Shown: piece by piece, positions 43,755-59,834 of the stretch | Layout: each line of letters starts with the position of its first letter | How positions within the stretch are numbered: position 1 is the first letter of the stretch | Source of the DNA: Spirosoma sp. SC4-14 | Lineage (GTDB): Bacteria > Bacteroidota > Bacteroidia > Cytophagales > Spirosomataceae | Length of the DNA stretch: 64,000 nt | NCBI RefSeq assembly: GCF_037201965.1 | Contig: NZ_CP147518.1 | Coordinates: forward strand, 4,953,001 to 5,017,000 | Direction of reading: 5' to 3' | Made by a program: the position numbers and the translations under genes | The notes under the pieces: generated by a model | Database searches by the model: none | The model's input: the letters and a program-made list of their open reading frames with translations, nothing else | Told to the model about the DNA's origin: nothing

Positions 43755-43861
43755 TGCTGTAGCAAAACCTATTGTTTCGGTCGAGCGCTGACACACTGAC
43801 AAAAGCCTTTAACAGCTTTCAGATAGTAGTCCAAAACTTCGGTTTTGCCCAGGAAAATCAC

Positions 43862-43869
43862 TATTTTTG
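43862..43869 (+). promoter_or_regulatory. Bacteroidota -7 promoter box for mutS
   Basis: TATTTTTG matches TAnnTTTG exactly, 23 bp upstream of the proposed GTG start at 43893. It falls inside the longer reading frame, which argues against the TTG start at 43845. Confidence 0.55.
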
Positions 43870-43892
43870 TTTATTACATTCCAGCAAGATCA

Positions 43893-46607
43893 GTGAAGAC
43901 AGCCACCGCAGCAAAGCCACAATCGAAGAAAACCGAAACACCCCTCAACCGTCAATACAACCAGATTAAAGCTAAGTACCCCGGTGCGTTGCTGCTCTTC
44001 CGCGTCGGTGATTTCTACGAAACGTTTGGCGAAGATGCCGTAAAAGCCAGTAAGATTCTGGGCATTACCCTGACCAAACGGAACAACGGTGGATCGAACG
44101 AAGATCTGGCTGGTTTCCCGCATCATTCGCTCGACACCTACCTCCCCAAACTCGTTCGGGCGGGCCAACGTGTAGCCATCTGCGACCAGTTGGAAGACCC
44201 CGCTCAGGCAAAAGGAATTGTACGGCGAGGAGTTACAGAACTAGTCACTCCCGGCGTTTCGTTCAACGACAATGTGCTGGACACCCGACGGAATAACTAC
44301 CTGGCAGCGGTGCATTTCGGCAAAAGCGGGTCCGGCAATCAGGAAGACCAGTTTGGCATATCGTTTCTGGATATTTCGACCGGCGAATTTCTGGCATCGC
44401 AGGGAAACGCGGCCTATGTCGACAAACTACTGCAAAGTTTCAATCCGTCGGAAGTGCTCTACTGCAAGCGTAACCGGGTGGAGTTTGGCGCACTATTCAG
44501 CGACAAATTCCATACCTATACGCTCGAAGATTGGGCTTTTACCTACGATTTTGGCTATAATTTTCTGAAACAGCACTTTCAGACTACGTCGCTTAAAGGT
44601 TTTGGGATTGAAGGCTTACCCGATGGTATCATCGCGGCTGGAGTCATCCTGCACTATCTGAACGAAACCGAACATAAAGATCTTCAGCATATTACGCGCG
44701 TTACCCGGCTCGAAGAAGATCGGTATGTCTGGCTCGATCGCTTCACAATCCGAAATCTCGAACTAACGGCCCCGCAGCAGGAAGGCGGTGTACCGCTGAT
44801 TCAGATTCTCGATCAGACGGTTACGCCAATGGGTGCCCGGTTACTTCGCAAATGGCTTAGCCTTCCGCTGAAAGAAAAAGCCCTGATCGATGAGCGGCTC
44901 AACATGGTCGAGCTACTGACCGACGACATCGACTTATCGGAAACGCTCGTCAATCATCTCCGCCAAATTGGCGATCTGGAACGGCTGGTCTCGAAAGTAG
45001 CCGTACGCCGGATTAACCCACGGGAATTATTGCAGCTAAAGCGGTCGCTACAGCACGTTTTGCCTATAAAAGAATTGCTCATCACGGCACTTGCAGCCCC
45101 TCCCGCTCCCAAAGGGGGAGCTTTATCCGAAGATGCGACCACAATTCCGCCTTTGGGAGGCAGGGGGTTACAAAAATACGCCGATCAGCTCAATCCTGTT
45201 TCGTTTCTGCTTGACCGTATCGAGGCCGAACTCCGCGAAGATCCGCCGACGCAAGCGAATCAGGGCGGTATGATTAAACCGGGCATCAACGCCGAACTCG
45301 ATGAACTAACCGCTATTGCCTATTCGGGTAAGGATTTTCTGCTTCAACTACAGGAACGGGAAGTACAGCGAACGGGCATTTCATCGCTGAAAGTGGCCTA
45401 TAACAAAGTGTTTGGCTATTATCTGGAAGTAACCCATGCACACAAAAGCCGCGTGCCCGACGACTGGATTCGGAAACAAACCCTCGTTAATGCCGAACGC
45501 TATATTACGCCCGAGCTGAAAGAATACGAAGAAAAAATACTGAACGCTGAAGAACAGATTTTTCAGATCGAGTCCCGAATGTTCAACGAACTGGTTGTAG
45601 CAGCAGGTGAATATGTGGGGGCCATTCAGCAGAACGCCCGTGTACTGTCGGTGCTCGATGTTCTGTCGTCGTTTGCCCGCGTTGCCGTTAAAAACAAATA
45701 CATCCGGCCACAAATCAGCGAAAGCAAAGTCCTGAATATCAAAGACGGCCGTCACGCGGTTATTGAACAACAACTTCCACCCGGCGAACCCTATATTCCG
45801 AACGATATTTACCTGGACGACGAAACGCAGCAGATTATCGTTATAACTGGGCCCAACATGGCGGGCAAATCGGCGCTGTTGCGCCAAACTGCCCTGATTG
45901 TTCTGATGGCTCAGTCGGGTAGTTTTGTTCCGGCAACTCAGGCCGAAATCGGCATAGTCGACAAGATTTTTACGCGCGTTGGCGCTTCGGACAACCTGTC
46001 GCGGGGCGAAAGTACATTCATGGTCGAAATGACCGAAACGGCCAGCATTCTGAATAACCTCAGCGAGCGTAGTCTGGTCTTGATGGATGAAATTGGTCGT
46101 GGCACAAGTACTTACGATGGCGTATCAATTGCCTGGTCGATTATCGAATATTTGCATAATAAGACGGATTGTCGACCCAAAACGCTGTTTGCCACGCATT
46201 ATCATGAGCTGAACGATCTGGCTACGGATAATCCCCGAATCAAAAATTTCAATGTTGCCGTTAAGGAACTAGGCAATAAAGTTATATTTCTACGCAAGTT
46301 AAAAGAGGGCGGTTCGGAGCACAGTTTCGGTATCCACGTAGCACAGATGGCTGGGATGCCCGCACAGATCGTGAGCCGCGCCAACGAAATTCTGAAACAA
46401 CTGGAATCGTCGCACCGTCGGGAAACGGACCGCGAGAAAATCCGGGAAGCGGTACCGCAGGAGCGGGAATTGGCGCTGCGCATTATCGAATCCGGCGACC
46501 CGAAATCGGAAGCCATCAAGGAGAAACTACGCGCCATCGACGTCAACCGGCTCACGCCCATCGAAGCCCTGCTGAAACTGAATGAGCTGATGAAATTGCT
46601 GGAGTAA
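43893..46607 (+). CDS. mutS: DNA mismatch repair protein MutS
   Basis: 904 residues from the GTG at 43893. Domain I has YPGALLLFRVGDFYETFGEDA with the F-x-E mismatch-reading motif. The ATPase has GPNMAGKSALLRQ (653-665), the signature DNLSRGESTFMVEM, Walker B LVLMDEIGRGTSTYDG and the ATHYHEL motif; the C-terminal helix-turn-helix for dimerisation follows. Residues about 401-426 (APPAPKGGALSED...PPLGGRG) are an extra insertion in the core/lever region, encoded by an inverted repeat at 45097-45167. It recognises mismatches and recruits MutL, which is not adjacent. Confidence 0.95.
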   Translation: MKTATAAKPQSKKTETPLNRQYNQIKAKYPGALLLFRVGDFYETFGEDAVKASKILGITLTKRNNGGSNEDLAGFPHHSLDTYLPKLVRAGQRVAICDQLEDPAQAKGIVRRGVTELVTPGVSFNDNVLDTRRNNYLAAVHFGKSGSGNQEDQFGISFLDISTGEFLASQGNAAYVDKLLQSFNPSEVLYCKRNRVEFGALFSDKFHTYTLEDWAFTYDFGYNFLKQHFQTTSLKGFGIEGLPDGIIAAGVILHYLNETEHKDLQHITRVTRLEEDRYVWLDRFTIRNLELTAPQQEGGVPLIQILDQTVTPMGARLLRKWLSLPLKEKALIDERLNMVELLTDDIDLSETLVNHLRQIGDLERLVSKVAVRRINPRELLQLKRSLQHVLPIKELLITALAAPPAPKGGALSEDATTIPPLGGRGLQKYADQLNPVSFLLDRIEAELREDPPTQANQGGMIKPGINAELDELTAIAYSGKDFLLQLQEREVQRTGISSLKVAYNKVFGYYLEVTHAHKSRVPDDWIRKQTLVNAERYITPELKEYEEKILNAEEQIFQIESRMFNELVVAAGEYVGAIQQNARVLSVLDVLSSFARVAVKNKYIRPQISESKVLNIKDGRHAVIEQQLPPGEPYIPNDIYLDDETQQIIVITGPNMAGKSALLRQTALIVLMAQSGSFVPATQAEIGIVDKIFTRVGASDNLSRGESTFMVEMTETASILNNLSERSLVLMDEIGRGTSTYDGVSIAWSIIEYLHNKTDCRPKTLFATHYHELNDLATDNPRIKNFNVAVKELGNKVIFLRKLKEGGSEHSFGIHVAQMAGMPAQIVSRANEILKQLESSHRRETDREKIREAVPQERELALRIIESGDPKSEAIKEKLRAIDVNRLTPIEALLKLNELMKLLE
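45097..45167. repeat. In-frame palindromic insertion inside mutS
   Basis: CCCCTCCCGCTCCCAAAGG (45097-45115) pairs with CCTTTGGGAGGCAGGGGG (45150-45167). The middle reads as ordinary codons, so the whole element of about 71 bp stays in frame. G/C-rich palindromes of the type CCCCTCCC-AAAGGGG that yield PPLGGRG-like peptides are frequent short repeats in Bacteroidota genomes (general knowledge, not checked here). Confidence 0.75.
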
Positions 46608-52002: not shown

Positions 52003-52200
52003 ATGGAAAAGAAATCGAGAATTACGTTTTATACCGACCTGAATGGCCCACATCAGGAGCAGGTTCGTAGAAATGCCAGCATGACGCTAGAAGAACGATG
52101 GAATGCATTTCTGCGGCTGAAAAGACGGCATTACGGCCTATTGGGAAAACCACTAAAACGAAAGCAACGCATCAGTATCGAAAAACCATCATGGATCTAG
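52003..52200 (+). CDS. Small basic protein upstream of a nucleotidyltransferase
   Basis: 65 residues, rich in Arg and Lys (TDLNGPHQEQVRRNASMTLE, KRRHYGLLGKPLKRKQRISI). A segment with the MTLEERWxAFxRLxRRxYG pattern recurs in small proteins next to nucleotidyltransferase genes in Bacteroidota. Its TAG overlaps the next gene's ATG by 10 bp, so the two are coupled. A role as an antitoxin or partner is likely but not shown. Confidence 0.65.
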   Translation: MEKKSRITFYTDLNGPHQEQVRRNASMTLEERWNAFLRLKRRHYGLLGKPLKRKQRISIEKPSWI

Positions 52201-52679
52201 ATGATGATAACTTTGTTCGCTTTGTCGTAGCAGCCGATCACAGTAAGCTCGATTATATACTGATTGGGGGTCTGGCACTTATTTTAAATGGGGGTGTTCG
52301 CTATACAGAAGATGCCGACGTTTGGATGAAACCCACAAATGAAAATAGGGATAACTTAGTGGCCACCTTACTCGAATTAGATTTTACGGAAGACGAGTTA
52401 ATTCCACTCAAATTGGCTGATTTTACGGAGCCTCAAATCATTCGTCTGGAAGAACACATCGACATTCTGACCCGTGTGCATCTTCGATTGAATTATGACG
52501 AATGCCGCCAACGGGCAAGACCTTTCATCATGCCAGGTGGCCAAACCATTTATTTTCTACATATAAACGACCTGCGCCAAGCCAAAATTCTGGCCCGTCG
52601 AACGAAAGACCTGAATGATGTTTTGATGATTGATGAAATCATTGACGAAATGAAAAAACAAAATCCTTCTCAGGATTAA
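52191..52679 (+). CDS. AbiEii/DUF6036-like nucleotidyltransferase
   Basis: 162 residues from the ATG at 52191. DYILIGGLALILNGGVRYTE and DADVWM give the pattern GGLAL-x3-G-x2-RxTxDxD of the minimal/AbiEii-type nucleotidyltransferases, with the metal-binding Asp pair. EHIDILTRVHL supplies a later Asp. The tail RTKDLNDVLMIDEIIDEM is typical of the family. Members transfer nucleotides to tRNA or proteins and often form toxin-antitoxin or abortive-infection systems. Here it is intact and coupled with the small gene before it. Confidence 0.78.
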   Translation: MDLDDDNFVRFVVAADHSKLDYILIGGLALILNGGVRYTEDADVWMKPTNENRDNLVATLLELDFTEDELIPLKLADFTEPQIIRLEEHIDILTRVHLRLNYDECRQRARPFIMPGGQTIYFLHINDLRQAKILARRTKDLNDVLMIDEIIDEMKKQNPSQD

Positions 52680-54184: not shown

Positions 54185-54276
54185 CGTTATAAAAACCTTT
54201 TCATCAATTACGCATTCTTCATAATTACGAAACACTCTTTTTTAGTACCTTACTGCCAGGTTTTATTTAGCACACT

Positions 54277-54867
54277 ATGCCTCTTTTCTCCCGACAACTT
54301 TCTGACGCTGACCTGATGACAGGCATTCGAGCGGGCGGAACACAGCGTCGGCTGTTCGAAAATAAATTATACGAGAAATACGCTTACCTCATTGCCGATG
54401 GTACCCGAAAGCACCGGCTCACCGAAGACGAATGCGCCAGCGCCTACTCCGACGCTGTTCTGACCGTGATCGAGCACGTCGCCAGCGACCGTTTTGAGGG
54501 GCGCTCGGAGCTTAAAACGTATCTTTATCAAATATTTACGAACAAATGTGTTGACGCTATTCGAAAAAAGACGACTAATCGAAGTAGTGTCCATGATACC
54601 TTTTCGCTCGACGACTCATTGTTCCAGTTGCCCGATGTAGCCCGAAACGCTATTCAGCATCTGGTTACCCAAAGCGCCATTGAGCAACTGCATAGCCATT
54701 TGCGCGACCTGGGCGAAAAATGCAGAGCCATGATTCTGTCGTGGGGCGAAGGCTATTCGGACGATGAAATTGCACTGGCAATGGGCTATAACTCGGCGGC
54801 AGTGGCTAAAACGAGTCGTTTGCGGTGCCTCGAAAAACTCCGTGAACGTTTTCGCGATATACTATGA
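54277..54867 (+). CDS. Sigma-70 family RNA polymerase sigma factor (ECF-like)
   Basis: 196 residues with sigma region 2 (about 30-95; SAYSDAVLTVIEHVASDRFE, ELKTYLYQIFTNKCVDAIRK) and region 4 (about 135-190; LRDLGEKCRAMILSWGEGYS, DEIALAMGYNSAAVAKTSRL, CLEKLRERF). It lacks regions 1 and 3. It should direct RNA polymerase to a small regulon, presumably including the cassette it heads. Its TGA overlaps the next gene's ATG (ATGA at 54864-54867), so the regulator pair is coupled. Confidence 0.9.
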   Translation: MPLFSRQLSDADLMTGIRAGGTQRRLFENKLYEKYAYLIADGTRKHRLTEDECASAYSDAVLTVIEHVASDRFEGRSELKTYLYQIFTNKCVDAIRKKTTNRSSVHDTFSLDDSLFQLPDVARNAIQHLVTQSAIEQLHSHLRDLGEKCRAMILSWGEGYSDDEIALAMGYNSAAVAKTSRLRCLEKLRERFRDIL

Positions 54868-55607
54868 ACACCACCGATCTGGAAACAATTGAAAACTACG
54901 TAAACGGCCAACTCTCGGCCGAAGAACGGGCGACGTTTGAGCAGGCTCTCCGCTCCGACCCTGCGGTTGCTGACGCCCTTGCGTTCTACATTATGTCGAA
55001 ACAGGCCGCTCAGGAGCAGGCCCGCCAGCAACGCATGGCCGAATTCGACGCACTTCGTCAACAACAGCCCGCTTTAGGCCAGCGCCCGCTCGGTAGCTGG
55101 ATAACCTATGCAGCGGCTGCCAGCATTGTTATTTTACTGGGCCTGGGCTGGTATTTTTTCGGACCAACATCCGAATCGACCGTGGCCGAAAATCAGTTTG
55201 TGGATACTTACGTAGCGACTCATTTTGCTGAACTTCCGACCACAATGGATGGCCGTACCGACAGCTTGAAACTAGGTGTCGATTTGTTCAACAAAGGGAA
55301 ACTAGCCGAAGCCGGAGTTATTTTTCAGGATGTTCTGAAACGCCACCCCGATACCGACAGCGCACTAAAATATGCGGGCATTGTTTCCCTGCGGCAGGGC
55401 AATTACGACCAAGCGATTGAACAATTTCACCAACTGAGCCAGCGCAGCGATCTGTTTTCAAATCCGGGTTTGTTCTACGAAAGTCTGGCTTTGCTGAAAC
55501 GCGGACAACCGATGGATAAGGCAAAGGCAAAAGAGTTGCTTGACGAAGTAATTCAGAAGAACTTAGAAGGGGAAACCGAAGCGGAACAAATCAGGGCAAC
55601 ATTATAG
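54864..55607 (+). CDS. Anti-sigma-like membrane protein with TPR domain
   Basis: 247 residues. The cytoplasmic N-terminus (about 1-75; LETIENYVNGQLSAEERATF, EQALRSDPAVADAL) matches the start of Bacteroidota anti-sigma factors. A single membrane helix lies at about 79-99 (SWITYAAAASIVILLGLGWYF). The periplasmic part (about 120-247) is a TPR-like helical array (LAEAGVIFQDVLKRHPDTDS, GNYDQAIEQFHQL). It likely holds the sigma factor until a periplasmic signal or protease acts. No canonical zinc HxxxCxxC was seen. Confidence 0.78.
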   Translation: MNTTDLETIENYVNGQLSAEERATFEQALRSDPAVADALAFYIMSKQAAQEQARQQRMAEFDALRQQQPALGQRPLGSWITYAAAASIVILLGLGWYFFGPTSESTVAENQFVDTYVATHFAELPTTMDGRTDSLKLGVDLFNKGKLAEAGVIFQDVLKRHPDTDSALKYAGIVSLRQGNYDQAIEQFHQLSQRSDLFSNPGLFYESLALLKRGQPMDKAKAKELLDEVIQKNLEGETEAEQIRATL

Positions 55608-55666
55608 CCTCATTCGCAACTGTATGCGTGGCCATTTATTTAACCCACCAATAATCCATACCCAAC

Positions 55667-57082
55667 ATGCAAAAGTACCCGAACGAGAATCAGGGCAAAC
55701 CCAGCCCGCTCCCCTATGAGGAAATCCCTTATCAGTTATCCAACGAAGAACTTTTAAAAATTGATAAGGAACGATTAGATAACAGAATTTTTCCGGCTGC
55801 TGCTCGGCTGGATCGGCGAGGGCGCATCATCAATCCTCAACAATTTATTATTGCCGATAAGGGCGCTGCCATTGACCGATTGGTAGTAGGGCGAACTTTC
55901 TGGCTGGAATCGTCAGGTACGCCGGGACGAATTGGTGTACGGGTATTGAAATCGCGTAAGCCGTCGGTAACGGGCAAACGATACGTATTGGTCGAAACCT
56001 TGTCGGGCGAGGAGCTAGTCCATTTAGAAGATACAGAAACCCAGATTTATACCGGCCCAACATCGCCCAATAGTATTGGTGTTATTCATCCCGGCACTTC
56101 GAATCCTGACGGAAGAGATCACTCCGGGCAAATAAATAGTTATGGCGTAGCTTCTTTGGTCATTCCGCTGTTGAATAATGGGATACAGATACAGCAAACA
56201 GCACAGATTGCGGCTTACGAAAACGATGCGGCTCTAGGCACAGCGACCATAGCTGTTTTAGATTCAGGCATTCGTTTTACTACCCCAACTCCACGGCTAA
56301 CCATCAGCAGTGACATAAGTTGGGATTTCGTGTCCGATGACAACACCCCAGAAGGCGACCCATTTCCCGTTGACAATCATTATGGTTTGCACGGCACCAA
56401 AATCTGTTCCATTATTAAACGTGTGGCCCCGGAAGTTGGCATACTGCCCGTAAAAGTCTCCAATCAGAACGGCCAGTTAAGTTTATACGATGCCCTGTGC
56501 GGTCTGGAGTTCGCCCGGACCCACGGCGCCCGTGTAGTCAATGCCAGTTGGTCATTCACGTCTAATGGAAATAATCGACCTGAGGAAGATTTTCCGTTAT
56601 TACTGCGGGCCATTCGCGACCTCGAAGAATCGGGCGTAGTGGTGGTAGCGGCTGCGGGCAACAGAAATCAGTATACACCGGCTGCGAATGGCCATATTGG
56701 ACTCAACGGAGCACCCAACATTTATCCGGCCTGCTACAGTTCTATTCAGGACAATGTCGTTACCGTGACAACTATAGTCCAGGGTGCGACTCCTCCTTTT
56801 TCTGTTTTCGAGAATTTTTCTTCCGAATTTGTCGATACCGGTGCCTTAACGAATGGTATTGCTTCAACGCCAATTGGCGAGTTTCGCATACCCGGTTTTA
56901 TCGGTAGCTATCGAGGCAGTTCGTTTGCCACACCCTATGTAGCCGCTCAAATAGCCCGAATACTAAGTAGTACGCCTGGTTATATCAGCAAACGTGCTAT
57001 GTTGCATCGACTTCGGGAATTTCATGAAGAATCTTGTCTATCGTCGGAAATTCGGAATGGTGGCTCCTACGTTGTGGTATAG
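55667..57082 (+). CDS. S8 subtilisin-like serine protease, no signal peptide
   Basis: 471 residues. Catalytic triad intact: IAVLDSGIRF (Asp199), HYGLHGTKICSII (His242), GSYRGSSFATPYVAAQI (Ser419), with oxyanion AAAGN (Asn332). The N-terminal 185 residues contain no signal peptide; they include a beta-rich domain (GRTFWLESSGTPGRIGVRVL, GKRYVLVETLSGEELVHLED) perhaps acting as a substrate or partner-binding domain. So it is predicted cytoplasmic. It follows the anti-sigma gene by 59 bp and its stop overlaps the CHAT gene. Cleavage of the anti-sigma or of the CHAT protein's targets is plausible but inferred. Confidence 0.88.
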   Translation: MQKYPNENQGKPSPLPYEEIPYQLSNEELLKIDKERLDNRIFPAAARLDRRGRIINPQQFIIADKGAAIDRLVVGRTFWLESSGTPGRIGVRVLKSRKPSVTGKRYVLVETLSGEELVHLEDTETQIYTGPTSPNSIGVIHPGTSNPDGRDHSGQINSYGVASLVIPLLNNGIQIQQTAQIAAYENDAALGTATIAVLDSGIRFTTPTPRLTISSDISWDFVSDDNTPEGDPFPVDNHYGLHGTKICSIIKRVAPEVGILPVKVSNQNGQLSLYDALCGLEFARTHGARVVNASWSFTSNGNNRPEEDFPLLLRAIRDLEESGVVVVAAAGNRNQYTPAANGHIGLNGAPNIYPACYSSIQDNVVTVTTIVQGATPPFSVFENFSSEFVDTGALTNGIASTPIGEFRIPGFIGSYRGSSFATPYVAAQIARILSSTPGYISKRAMLHRLREFHEESCLSSEIRNGGSYVVV

Positions 57083-59834
57083 AGTTGCACTGATCTTCTG
57101 TTGCTTTCCGTTTATTTGTCAGGCTCAGTGCATCAACCGCACTGAGCTTTTAGCTTTATTCGACTCCTGTTTAAGCCAACCCTATTCGAAGCAGGTCACT
57201 ACTATTTCATCGATCCTGAAAACCTGGCAAAATTGCCATTATCTTCAGGACTCCTCCTATGTCAATCTGCATTTAGAATTGGCTAAAGCCATGTTCAGAG
57301 ACGGGAATACGCAGGCTGCCATCAACCAAATTGAACACATTCTACCTATCTACAATAAACCGTCTGCTTATCTGAAGCCGGAAGATCAGGTAAAGGCTTA
57401 TTACCGCCTGGGCGTTTACTGGAAAGAACGTAATCAGTTTGGTAATGCGATTCTGGCCTCAAAAAAAGCCATCAAACTTGGTGAGCGGCTACCTAGCAGT
57501 AGTTGGACTTCCTTTGCCTACAGAACATTGGCATATGCAGATTATTCGATGGGTGAATACCAGAAGGCAATCGAATATGCTGAAAAAGCGATGGCCCAGG
57601 CATTAATTGTACATGACGATGTGGCTTATCTGGAAGCTCAAGTTGAAGAGATTAAAAGTTTAATAGCTCTTGGTGAATACGAAAAAGCACGTAAAAACCT
57701 TACTACGAGTATTGCACTCGCCCAAAAAAGCGATCAGTACTCCTTAGCCATTTTATTGATGTATAAAGCAATTCTGGAAATTGCGAACCAAGATGCTCAG
57801 GCAGCGTTGGCGAGTTATAAAAAAGCCTTACAGATCAATCTGCTGCTTGACAATAAACCTGGCATCATAAACAGCCAAATAGACATTGGGCACCTTCTTT
57901 ACCAACTCAAGCAATATGGCAACGCCTTAGCCTATTACAGAGAAGCCTATAAACTTGCTACTGACCCGTTCGTTAAACTTCGCATATTAGATAACATAGC
58001 TGCTGTTTACTGGCAGAAGAAAGCCTATCCAACTGCTCTGAAGTATTATCAGGATGGGCTTACGGTATTGCCATTCGGATTTACAAATCGGCAAATTACG
58101 GCCCTGCCCAAAGCAGACATGATTCGAGTCGCGTCTCAGAAAGAGTTTCTGCTGACCCTCATCCAGGATAAAGCCGACACCTGGCTCGATTATGCCAAAG
58201 CCACTAAAAACAGGCAGCGACTACAGCATGCGCTCGAAACCTATACCGTTGCCGATCAGATGATCGATGTTATGCGCTGGGAACATTCGGGCCAGCAATC
58301 GAAACTCTACTGGCGTCAAAAAACACGGGGTATGTATGAGCGTGCGCTCGAAACCTGTTTTTTGCTCAACGACACTGAACAGGCGTTCCGGTTTCTGGAG
58401 AAAAGCCGGGCCGTTATGCTAGCCGATAAACTCAATGAGTTGGGAGCACGGCAACAGCTTGCCCCCCAGTTAGTTGCTCAGGAACAGAAACTAAGACAGG
58501 CCGTCGAAAGCCAGCAACAAAAACTGGCGGGTCTATCGCCCGATAGTGCGGCTTATCTGCGGGTTCGGTCAGCACTTCTAACAAAACAGGATAGTCTGGA
58601 TACGTTTCTGAAAGAACTGGAAGCCTACAACCCTGCCTACTATCACTACAAATACGATAACACTACCCCAACGCTCGCTCAGACGCAACAATTTTTAAGA
58701 AAAAACCAGAGTGCGCTCATCACGTATTTTGTGGGCGATAGTGCTTTGTATGTGATGAGCATTACGCCCGATAAGCTTCTACTCCGTAAGCAATCGATCA
58801 GCCAGTATAATCGATCTATAGAACCCTTCGCTCAACTATTGAGCAATCCAGATGCGATGAGCAGGCGGGCAAACTTTCAGCGGTTTCTGACCTCTAGCAA
58901 TCAGTTATACCGCCAGTTGCTGGCTCCGTTTTCGCTACCTCAAGGCCGGGTCATTGTCTCGCCCGACGGGTATTTTATTCCGTTCGATGCCCTGAGTCGT
59001 TCCGACAAACAGCCAGATTATGCCCTGAATGAATATGCCTTTAGCTATGCCTATTCGGCTAATTTATTGCTTAGAGAGCACCCTCATGAACAATATTCTG
59101 CCACGCATAAAGCCAGTTTTTTAGGCGTCGCTCCCGTCGATTTTGCGCCAAAGCTAAATCAGGTCATGCTGTCGGGTTCTGACGATGCGCTGAAGTCGAT
59201 AGCGGACCATTTTACGGCACCGAAACTGTTAACCCATCAACTGGCTACACGCGCTGCTTTTCAACGCGAAGTCGTCAACTACCCGGTTGTGCTTCTGTTT
59301 ACACACGCTCAGGCCGACAGTACCGATCAGGAACCAACGCTCTACTTTGCCGATTCGACCCTCCGACTCTCTGAATTGGGCAATGGGGCCTTGCCAGAGG
59401 CTCAGTTGGTAGCACTGGCAGCCTGTAAAACAGGCATTGGTGCCAATCAGCAGGGCGAAGGCGTGTTTAGTCTGGCCAGAGGATTTTCGGCCCTGGGCGT
59501 GCCGAGTGTGTTAACAACGCTCTGGAGCGTTCAGAACCAGGCAACTTATCAGCTAACGAATTTATTCTACCAATACCTCGATGAAGGGCTACCCAAGGAT
59601 TTAGCCTTACAACGAGCAAAACAGGAGTGGCTCAAAACCACCGAAGGCATTAACCAACTGCCTAACTATTGGGCTGGCCTTATTATAGTTGGTGATTCGA
59701 CGCCACTGTTGCGAATCAACTTTGGACTATGGATTATTGCAGCAATAGGGATATGTTTTGCCGGACTTAGCCTATGGTACTACCGCTGGAAGCGTCGGCC
59801 AAAGCTTATTGCGGCAGTTGATAAACAGACCTAA
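57057..59834 (+). CDS. Exported TPR-CHAT caspase-like protease with C-terminal membrane anchor
   Basis: 925 residues from the ATG at 57057, chosen because MVAPTLWYRVALIFCCFPFI then CQAQ is a tight signal peptide; an ATG at 57024 is also in frame. TPR repeats fill about residues 60-350 (AIEYAEKAMAQALIVHDDVA, QAALASYKKALQINLLL). The CHAT domain (about 590-880) has FTHAQAD with His750 and ALAACKTGIGANQQGEGVFS with Cys790, the catalytic dyad. PNYWAGLIIVGDS closes it. A membrane helix at about 888-908 and a basic tail (YYRWKRRPK) anchor it, so TPR and CHAT would face the periplasm. The gene begins 26 bp inside the protease gene. Confidence 0.87.
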   Translation: MVAPTLWYRVALIFCCFPFICQAQCINRTELLALFDSCLSQPYSKQVTTISSILKTWQNCHYLQDSSYVNLHLELAKAMFRDGNTQAAINQIEHILPIYNKPSAYLKPEDQVKAYYRLGVYWKERNQFGNAILASKKAIKLGERLPSSSWTSFAYRTLAYADYSMGEYQKAIEYAEKAMAQALIVHDDVAYLEAQVEEIKSLIALGEYEKARKNLTTSIALAQKSDQYSLAILLMYKAILEIANQDAQAALASYKKALQINLLLDNKPGIINSQIDIGHLLYQLKQYGNALAYYREAYKLATDPFVKLRILDNIAAVYWQKKAYPTALKYYQDGLTVLPFGFTNRQITALPKADMIRVASQKEFLLTLIQDKADTWLDYAKATKNRQRLQHALETYTVADQMIDVMRWEHSGQQSKLYWRQKTRGMYERALETCFLLNDTEQAFRFLEKSRAVMLADKLNELGARQQLAPQLVAQEQKLRQAVESQQQKLAGLSPDSAAYLRVRSALLTKQDSLDTFLKELEAYNPAYYHYKYDNTTPTLAQTQQFLRKNQSALITYFVGDSALYVMSITPDKLLLRKQSISQYNRSIEPFAQLLSNPDAMSRRANFQRFLTSSNQLYRQLLAPFSLPQGRVIVSPDGYFIPFDALSRSDKQPDYALNEYAFSYAYSANLLLREHPHEQYSATHKASFLGVAPVDFAPKLNQVMLSGSDDALKSIADHFTAPKLLTHQLATRAAFQREVVNYPVVLLFTHAQADSTDQEPTLYFADSTLRLSELGNGALPEAQLVALAACKTGIGANQQGEGVFSLARGFSALGVPSVLTTLWSVQNQATYQLTNLFYQYLDEGLPKDLALQRAKQEWLKTTEGINQLPNYWAGLIIVGDSTPLLRINFGLWIIAAIGICFAGLSLWYYRWKRRPKLIAAVDKQT

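Follow-up and report, generated by a model that had tools for sequence, protein, structure and literature searches.

A four-gene sigma factor cassette of Spirosoma in which a subtilase gene and half of a TPR-CHAT protease gene appear to be replaced as one block

Do four adjacent genes in Spirosoma sp. SC4-14, which encode an extracytoplasmic function (ECF) sigma factor, a putative anti-sigma factor, a subtilisin-like protease of family S8 and a TPR-CHAT caspase-like protease, form one system, and what would such a system do? The genes lie on the plus strand at 54277-59834 of a 64,000-nucleotide stretch of DNA (contig NZ_CP147518.1, positions 4,953,001 to 5,017,000; hereafter the window). We report that the four genes belong together as a joint system, which is strongly supported, and that, as judged from comparisons of related loci, the cassette is built of two units. 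The sigma factor, the anti-sigma factor and the C-terminal approximately 565 residues of the CHAT protein (CHATc) vary together as a conserved frame. A second covarying unit, the module, consists of S8 and the part of the CHAT gene for the TPR half (CHATn; the first approximately 360 codons, encoding the signal peptide and the TPRs) and is replaced as one block. This arrangement would fit a conserved membrane signalling circuit, running from the TPR-CHAT protease via the anti-sigma factor to the ECF sigma factor, with S8 and the TPRs as an interchangeable input and recognition module, a reading to which we give an even chance of being correct.

A preliminary description of the window had listed four intact co-directional open reading frames (ORFs), and its positions and overlaps hold: the sigma and anti-sigma genes overlap in ATGA at 54864-54867, 59 bp separate the anti-sigma stop from the S8 start, and the CHAT gene begins within the S8 gene (Table 1). 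The TPRs that it placed in both the anti-sigma and the CHAT protein are matched by Pfam families, and the catalytic residues are kept throughout the relatives (S8 D199, H242, N332 and S419 in 60 of 60 aligned S8 proteins; CHAT H750 and C790 in 74 of 74 aligned CHAT proteins). The longest CHAT ORF starts at GTG 56994; ATG 57057 is the more likely start because of the signal peptide and the 26-bp overlaps seen in three other loci (L039, L043 and L055), and ATG 57024 is a possible alternative. The sigma factor carries the expected sigma domains, and the anti-sigma gene is translationally coupled to it and encodes one transmembrane (TM) helix. Given that the curated anti-sigma model NF052375 (NCBIfam) scores 35.4 bits, below its cut-off of 100, the anti-sigma role rests on position, the single TM helix and covariation. 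The genome of the window has one PF12770 match and 11 subtilase matches, and CHATc has no match at E 0.05 or better among PDB sequences.

The CHAT protein was searched against 121 genomes of the family, giving matches in 92 (distant CHAT relatives included), and a search of the taxonomic order matched 172 of 292 genomes. Loci were gathered from these and other sources (approximately 14 kb around 59 of the family matches, 20 further loci, 20 from the search of the order and 35 named loci, 18 of which are identical to other loci in the set). The set has 80 loci including the window, and six with CHAT scores below 600 bits in our own hidden Markov model (L074 and L086-L090) were left out; the 74 that remain are those counted here. 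Genus labels were given by DNA identical to named records (g1, Spirosoma; g16, Larkinella; g18, which includes Fibrisoma montanum).

A sigma gene is present in 63 of these loci, an anti-sigma gene in 64 and an S8 gene in 60. All four genes lie within 5 kb in 54 of the 74, and in 53 they are co-directional and in the same order. The order, which the preliminary description would have discounted had it been confined to one genome, is found in Flavobacterium sp. SUN052 (L148) and Lunatibacter (L151) as well, and metagenome-assembled genomes of Robiginitalea (L156) and Eudoraea (L157) have the four parts together in another layout, with S8-CHAT facing the anti-sigma/sigma pair. L112-L114 are further full cassettes; given its score of only 38-41 bits, the sigma factor of L113 and L114 is a different ECF factor. 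Genus g36 has six loci without sigma and anti-sigma genes, five of which consist of S8-CHAT alone, and L115 and L117 likewise have S8-CHAT without a sigma gene. Among 36 Spirosoma genomes, CHAT orthologs (>500 bits) were found in 24 and anti-sigma orthologs (>190 bits) in 24, with both genes in 23 and neither in 11. The anti-sigma gene of one genome (G139, 84% complete) is present in two pieces only, and another (G142, 71% complete) has the anti-sigma gene and a 78-residue CHAT stub. Hence the proposed joint system is borne out by gene order, by linked presence and absence in Spirosoma and by the catalytic residues; the idea of a fixed four-gene cassette has to give way to that of a mosaic with an exchangeable S8 gene and CHATn.

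Evidence for the two units comes from identities among 21 of the 25 Spirosoma loci, those with all four genes (L099, L104, L109 and L110 were left out), i.e. 210 pairs. Mean pairwise identity is 0.74 for the sigma factor, 0.56 for the anti-sigma factor, 0.60 for CHATc and 0.89 for the neighbouring gene Orn (136 pairs), and it is 0.21 for the N-terminal part of S8 (S8n), 0.32 for its catalytic part (S8c) and 0.28 for CHATn. Identities correlate within the frame (sigma with anti-sigma 0.76, sigma with CHATc 0.76, anti-sigma with CHATc 0.84) and within the module (0.68-0.74; S8n with CHATn 0.73, S8c with CHATn 0.68), and between frame and module the correlations are 0.03-0.27. Mantel tests on 19 loci (2000 permutations; the near-copies L093 and L103 left out) gave 0.73 for S8n and 0.67 for S8c against CHATn, both with p 0.0005, the least possible with this number of permutations, and the link is almost unchanged given CHATc (0.66-0.73). 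Between loci of different module classes (see below) CHAT identity is 26% over residues 341-360 and rises abruptly to 67% over residues 361-380, and same-class pairs (57) exceed different-class pairs (172) in S8 and CHATn only, with sigma, anti-sigma and CHATc alike.

The same border is visible in the DNA. Sharp borders are present in seven of ten locus pairs (L048/L058, L048/L051, L051/L058, L070/L111, L105/L106, L032/L092 and L036/L037), in which an identity of 77-95% stops between approximately 190 bp before and 81 bp after the anti-sigma stop codon, short stray matches aside, and returns (72-96%) within CHAT, between codons 326 and 409 if numbering begins with the longest ORF. In the four g31 pairs identity stops at the anti-sigma stop codon or 16 bp beyond it. 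The clearest pair, L048/L058, has 95.4% identity, then 2.4 kb without alignable DNA, then 95.7%. Two pairs that have the module in common (L097/L098 and L104/L109) are aligned straight through, and L066/L070 are too diverged for borders to be judged.

Could fast sequence evolution of the protease and the TPRs, with no block replacement, produce the same pattern? TPR and S8 prodomain regions do evolve fast in many families, and identities of approximately 20-30% lie little above the floor, so that correlations across the groups carry less weight. However, this account is hardly tenable and, taken alone, is ruled out by the DNA breakpoints, by the contrast in synonymous divergence (dS) between module and surroundings and by clades that cross genera. 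The unalignable 2.4 kb of L048/L058 lie between two nearly identical blocks, and in L097/L098 dS is saturated in the module versus 0.18 in the sigma gene and 0.67 in CHATc (L034/L035 are similar). The ratio of nonsynonymous to synonymous divergence (dN/dS) for S8 and CHATn within classes is 0.08-0.27 (computable in 10 of 12 pairs), i.e. selection is purifying, and there is thus no sign of fast amino-acid change within classes. Moreover, the same well-supported trans-genus clades appear in two separate trees.

These trees, computed with a quick LG+G4 model and no mixture model (long-branch warnings on L063, L057 and L065/L067/L076), need 14 genus changes for CHATc in 54 loci, the least possible, of which Spirosoma needs two; for CHATn and S8c the number is 17 in both cases, of which Spirosoma accounts for eight and seven, respectively, six of these forced by well-supported branches in both. 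The same four trans-genus clades are present in the separate S8c and CHATn trees. As read from these trees, the module exists as at least four old allele classes common to several genera; the classes were named after the trees had been seen and rest on one genome per species, and their support is the recovery of the same clades from two separate alignments. Class A comprises the window, four other Spirosoma, one Fibrisoma and three g3 loci; class B, Spirosoma and Fibrisoma; class C, Spirosoma, g31, Larkinella and others; and class D, Spirosoma, g31 and others. With 16 of the 54 loci left out (eight long-branch or near-copy rows and rows without a class), joint trees of the remaining 38 show each class as one well-supported module clade; for the frame, forcing any of the classes into a clade costs 574 to 2351 log-likelihood units and is rejected. 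A single Spirosoma clade is rejected strongly by the module (log-likelihood difference 753) and weakly by the frame (45, p 0.003).

As to how modules are replaced, L032, L099 and weakly L045 have truncated second copies of the anti-sigma 3' end just before S8, and the Larkinella loci (L040-L045) carry a tandem pair of anti-sigma genes between the sigma and S8 genes; such extra ends and genes are the footprints expected if the anti-sigma end is one recombination arm. Silent cassettes elsewhere in the genome were considered as a source and rejected: no second S8 copy above 33 bits was found in the 36 Spirosoma genomes with one class A query, which would miss distant classes. Replacement is therefore most likely by transfer.

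Predicted topology suggests how the frame might work. The anti-sigma factor is predicted to span the inner membrane once, N-terminus in and C-terminus out (10 of 64 relatives fall below the crude hydropathy threshold of 1.6 for the TM helix). For the TPR and CHAT domains a periplasmic location and a C-terminal TM anchor are predicted, based on the leader ending in QAQC and on the TM helix followed by a basic tail (by the positive-inside rule). By crude hydropathy a leader-like N-terminus is present in 67 and a C-terminal TM helix in 68 of the 74 CHAT proteins, and several of those remaining look leader- or TM-bearing by eye. In the circuit that we favour, the S8 partner and the TPR domain would bind each other and jointly sense a variable cue, which would switch on the CHAT protease; CHAT would then cleave the anti-sigma factor on its periplasmic side (site 1), later proteolysis within the membrane might release the ECF sigma factor, and the freed sigma factor would turn on a regulon that probably includes its own operon. 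S8 might be a gate that activates or restrains CHAT, or a ligand seen by the TPRs, and class-specific pairing would be essential. A proteolytic switch on the sigma factor had been proposed in the preliminary description and is plausible, as CHATc covaries with the periplasmic region of the anti-sigma factor (Mantel rho 0.84; partial 0.61 given sigma).

Several observations weigh against this circuit or limit the evidence for it. The cytosolic part of the anti-sigma factor gives a partial correlation of 0.50 with CHATc, near the periplasmic value, so that the periplasmic preference is modest, and the covariation may reflect shared ancestry. The identity floor mentioned above weakens the frame-module comparison, and more weight is therefore put on the DNA borders and the trees. 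Neither is the frame perfectly clean, since the CHATc tree splits Spirosoma (17 + 4 rows) and g31 needs three changes. None of the 30 S8 proteins in classes A, B and D, that of the window included, has an export leader, yet their TPR partner is exported, so S8 and the TPRs may not share a compartment in the window's class. Finally, 14 of the 74 CHAT loci have no S8 match (three of these, L077, L079 and L080, are on short contigs), which suggests that the protease itself is not always needed. In three S8-less loci (L058, L104 and L109) the third slot holds a small protein with no Pfam family, and the CHAT N-terminal half is at most 27% identical to any S8-linked one; CHATc of L058 is 97% identical to that of L048. 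The matched pair thus seems to matter more than the protease itself. The slot-3 proteins of L104 and L109 might conceivably be S8 N-terminal domains that lack the protease, an idea that was set aside, being based on weak matches (E 1.9e-6 to L057 when 60 sequences were compared; approximately 0.01-0.02 to class B).

The leader pattern bears on a further explanation, kin recognition, in which S8 would serve as a token of identity, with a matched receptor in the TPR half, so that a mismatch, or hypothetically S8 from lysed neighbours, would signal via CHAT to the sigma factor, in a bacterial analogue of fungal het idiomorph loci. Release by lysis would agree with the leaderless S8 of classes A, B and D, but all 17 class C proteins carry a leader, and leader-bearing and leaderless S8 alternate within the same frame (L048 vs L051; L097/L098/L108 vs other Spirosoma). 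The very divergent alleles at one locus, the trans-genus classes, the seemingly co-adapted pairs and the purifying selection within classes are in keeping with such a system, and the parts seen of two papers describe, in fungi, the HET-Q2 subtilisin-like protease encoded by the idiomorph of a gasdermin gene (PMC12881547) and trans-species polymorphism of het genes (PMC11138114). With one genome per species in the sample as a further point against it, we regard kin recognition as quite unlikely.

The preliminary description also linked the two proteases to conflict and regulated death, and for this we found no support. In its strongest form the idea would be a defence or abortive-infection cassette, i.e. 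a two-protease cascade of S8 and CHAT triggered by phages or other invaders, with the sigma factor as amplifier and with module swaps that track phage triggers. CHAT and S8 proteases do occur in gasdermin and other conflict systems, according to the parts seen of two papers (PMC12881547, PMC8195603), and replaceable old alleles are the expected outcome of a recognition arms race. However, PADLOC matches on the cassette are generic or weak (a generic subtilase model on S8, E 3e-10; two IetS matches, E 0.02; BovA on CHAT, E 0.006) and the flanks are housekeeping, with Orn downstream in 20 of the 25 Spirosoma loci. Among 10 neighbouring proteins PADLOC found no defence neighbour, matching only Orn (DEDDh exonuclease and similar models) and the 43845-46607 protein (mad8, 20.9 bits). 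The cassette genes include no pore former, nuclease or toxin gene, and among them and the 10 neighbours there is neither a defence island nor a gasdermin-type effector beside the proteases (gasdermins were not searched genome-wide); Pfam Gasdermin_C scores 16.7 bits in the CHAT protein, below its cut-off of 36.3. We found no evidence for cell death or a defence island at the cassette. Since each genome has one allele, with no second S8 copy at the threshold given above, and selection within classes is purifying, a defence role is unlikely.

ECF/anti-sigma circuits are usually stress sensors, and the locus could be an envelope-stress or nutrient sensor that adapts to local conditions by acquiring new input halves through ordinary horizontal transfer; S8 would then mature or degrade a class-specific ligand, with no recognition of self or invader. 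In the wider family other proteins precede CHAT (a matrixin in L090, elsewhere exported proteins without assignment), as such a sensor would allow. Against it, a whole protease and half of the next protein have been replaced at a fixed border, in at least four old classes across genera, which is more than ordinary adaptation usually leaves; we consider it a possible explanation, though a doubtful one. A more far-reaching version of the preferred circuit is that of a bacterial polymorphic recognition locus, in which the sensor half of a caspase-like receptor would be inherited together with a matching protease, as ancient trans-genus alleles that are swapped at a fixed intragenic border, and CHAT, anti-sigma and sigma would read the match. 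Its task might be self/non-self or invader recognition with gene expression and not death as output. One trait of allorecognition systems is present, i.e. very divergent alleles at one locus common to species and genera; we put this proposal forward tentatively and think it somewhat unlikely.

Table 1. Coordinates of the cassette features in the window; the module borders are inferred from alignments of relatives
Feature	Position	Strand	Description and basis
Promoter-like element TTTTTAGTACCTTAC	54239..54253	+	Putative; 24 bp upstream of the sigma gene
Sigma gene	54277..54867	+	ECF sigma factor, frame part; TIGR02937 57.7 bits (cut-off 42.9), PF04542 24 bits, PF07638 22.2 bits
Anti-sigma gene	54864..55607	+	Single-pass, frame part; cytosolic N-terminal part, TM helix near residues 78-97, periplasmic TPR part; TPR families (Pfam), topology predicted from sequence
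Exchangeable module	55608..58136	+	S8 gene and first ~360 CHAT codons; DNA breakpoints, identity step, Mantel tests, trees
S8 (subtilase) gene	55667..57082	+	Class A, without signal peptide; PF00082 (Peptidase_S8) 78.8 bits
TPR-CHAT protease gene	57057..59834	+	Signal peptide ending in QAQC, TPRs (module part to ~58136), CHAT frame part, C-terminal TM helix, basic tail; PF12770 152.2 bits and TPR families; TM helix and leader by hydropathy
CHAT gene, frame part (CHATc)	58137..59834	+	Helical linker, CHAT catalytic domain (H750, C790), TM anchor; covaries with sigma and anti-sigma, not with S8

The preliminary description had suggested a search for a shared promoter motif in front of such cassettes. 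The element TTTTTAGTACCTTAC is near-identical in several Spirosoma and both Fibrisoma loci; no motif usable for a regulon emerged. The element has one occurrence in its own genome, and TTTTTNGTACCTTAC, being found only once there, yields no regulon. The motif TTAGTCG, often with GGNAAC approximately 15-20 bases on, is enriched upstream of the sigma genes of several genera, always on the plus strand (L041-L046, L049, L060, L063, L065, L067, L071, L076, L107 and L108). Its long form, TTAGTCG-N-GG(W)AAC, was seen 14 times within 350 bp upstream of sigma versus 1.65 expected; it was not used as a shared sigma regulon motif, as five of the 14 are from one genus, several are near-copies and it is absent in the window. 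TTAGTCG is a possible autoregulatory site.

An AlphaFold2 model of the window's S8 protein (mean predicted local distance difference test score 77) has a separate all-beta domain (approximately residues 54-162) ahead of the subtilase domain. An I9-type propeptide, guessed from motifs in this N-terminal region, was dropped; Pfam has none there and the model is all-beta without an I9 pattern. In L050, L062 and L064 the S8 N-terminal region has short tandem repeats (GQDGNTN..) in variable number ahead of the catalytic domain. Spirosoma loci L105-L108 form a separate frame lineage without an Orn neighbour, and the genus seems to hold two cassette lineages. Spirosoma validum (L110/L153) has a second CHAT gene of the same subfamily (8352-11138 of L110) without sigma, anti-sigma or S8. 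Distant exported TPR-CHAT genes adjoin a sigma/anti-sigma pair, usually in another orientation (L086, L087, L089, L090, L120, L121, L131, L155-L157, L159, L160, L163 and L164), and in such distant members the slot before CHAT holds the matrixin of L090 and elsewhere exported proteins without assignment; the CHAT-sigma link seems older than the S8 slot. In L128-L130 an exported family starting QGCSDAGFCTMGAM lies directly before CHAT; its L128 member has no Pfam match, and by eye the family has the look of an outer-membrane barrel. Elsewhere in the window, a DUF6036 nucleotidyltransferase-like gene (52098-52679; PF19502, 34.5 bits) lies upstream of an exonuclease III gene and has no PADLOC match.

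If the preferred circuit is correct, it would be a non-CRISPR membrane circuit of TPR-CHAT protease, anti-sigma and sigma factor, and would bear on the origin of the sigma output of Craspase (the CRISPR-linked circuit compared below) and on the role of many exported bacterial TPR-CHAT proteins. It would also be a natural domain-swap experiment, in that exchange of S8 and half a protein marks the border between sensor and effector (approximately residue 360) and a probable interaction, and it would give free-living Bacteroidota a candidate variable recognition locus that is open to testing; exchange of S8 and the CHAT sensor half between species would be as if cells swap what they recognise. 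Like systems of the RseA-DegS type, the cassette combines a co-transcribed ECF sigma factor and a single-pass anti-sigma factor with a periplasmic domain, and a periplasmic protease alongside; unlike them, it would rely for site-1 cleavage on a caspase-like CHAT enzyme that carries TPRs and has an exchangeable S8 protein as its dedicated partner. In CalpL-CalpT-CalpS a protease cuts an anti-sigma-like protein to free a sigma factor, but there the protease is a SAVED-Lon enzyme driven by cyclic oligoadenylate, with no CHAT or S8 protein.

In the open-licence literature of PubMed Central (PMC; subscription papers and preprints were outside the scope) we found no description of the four-gene set or of module exchange. 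In the parts seen of the respective papers, genes for metacaspases of Myxococcus and others, which have the caspase fold, share an operon with a sigma-70 gene (PMC3501461), and EACC2-caspase systems combine an ECF sigma factor and a TPR protein (PMC8195603); the protease of these operons is not an exported TPR-CHAT protein, and those parts describe neither an S8 partner nor module exchange. TPR-CHAT proteases also occur in fungal gasdermin clusters (PMC12881547, seen in part). With het-Q1/het-Q2 and other fungal allorecognition loci the cassette has in common a subtilisin-like protease at a locus with very divergent alternatives; it differs in lacking a gasdermin, in kingdom and in having a sigma factor as output.

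The closest comparison is with Craspase and its CASP-sigma output (type III-E CRISPR; Csx29, Csx30), where, in the parts seen of two papers, the TPR-CHAT protease Csx29 is encoded beside an ECF-type sigma factor and an inhibitor, cleavage of which is thought to free the sigma factor (PMC10028731, PMC9729208). Here too a TPR-CHAT protein with a His-Cys dyad adjoins a sigma gene. Unlike in Craspase, export and a membrane anchor are predicted for the protease, the role of inhibitor falls to a single-pass TPR anti-sigma factor and not to Csx30, and the cassette has in addition an S8 partner and a swappable N-terminal module. With the type III-E sigma model NF041236 (cut-off 100) the sigma factor reaches 34.6 bits, and among the 10 scanned neighbours there is no Cas effector, only the CAS-associated DEDDh exonuclease model on Orn (no array search was made). 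Because the sigma factor fails this model and the protease would be exported, the likeness to type III-E is limited to logic: the cassette appears to work like Craspase, apparently outside CRISPR, and would be a free-standing relative in logic, not necessarily the same system. Pairings of caspase-fold genes and sigma factors are already known, and what is unexpected here is the evolutionary feature, the exchange of the module.

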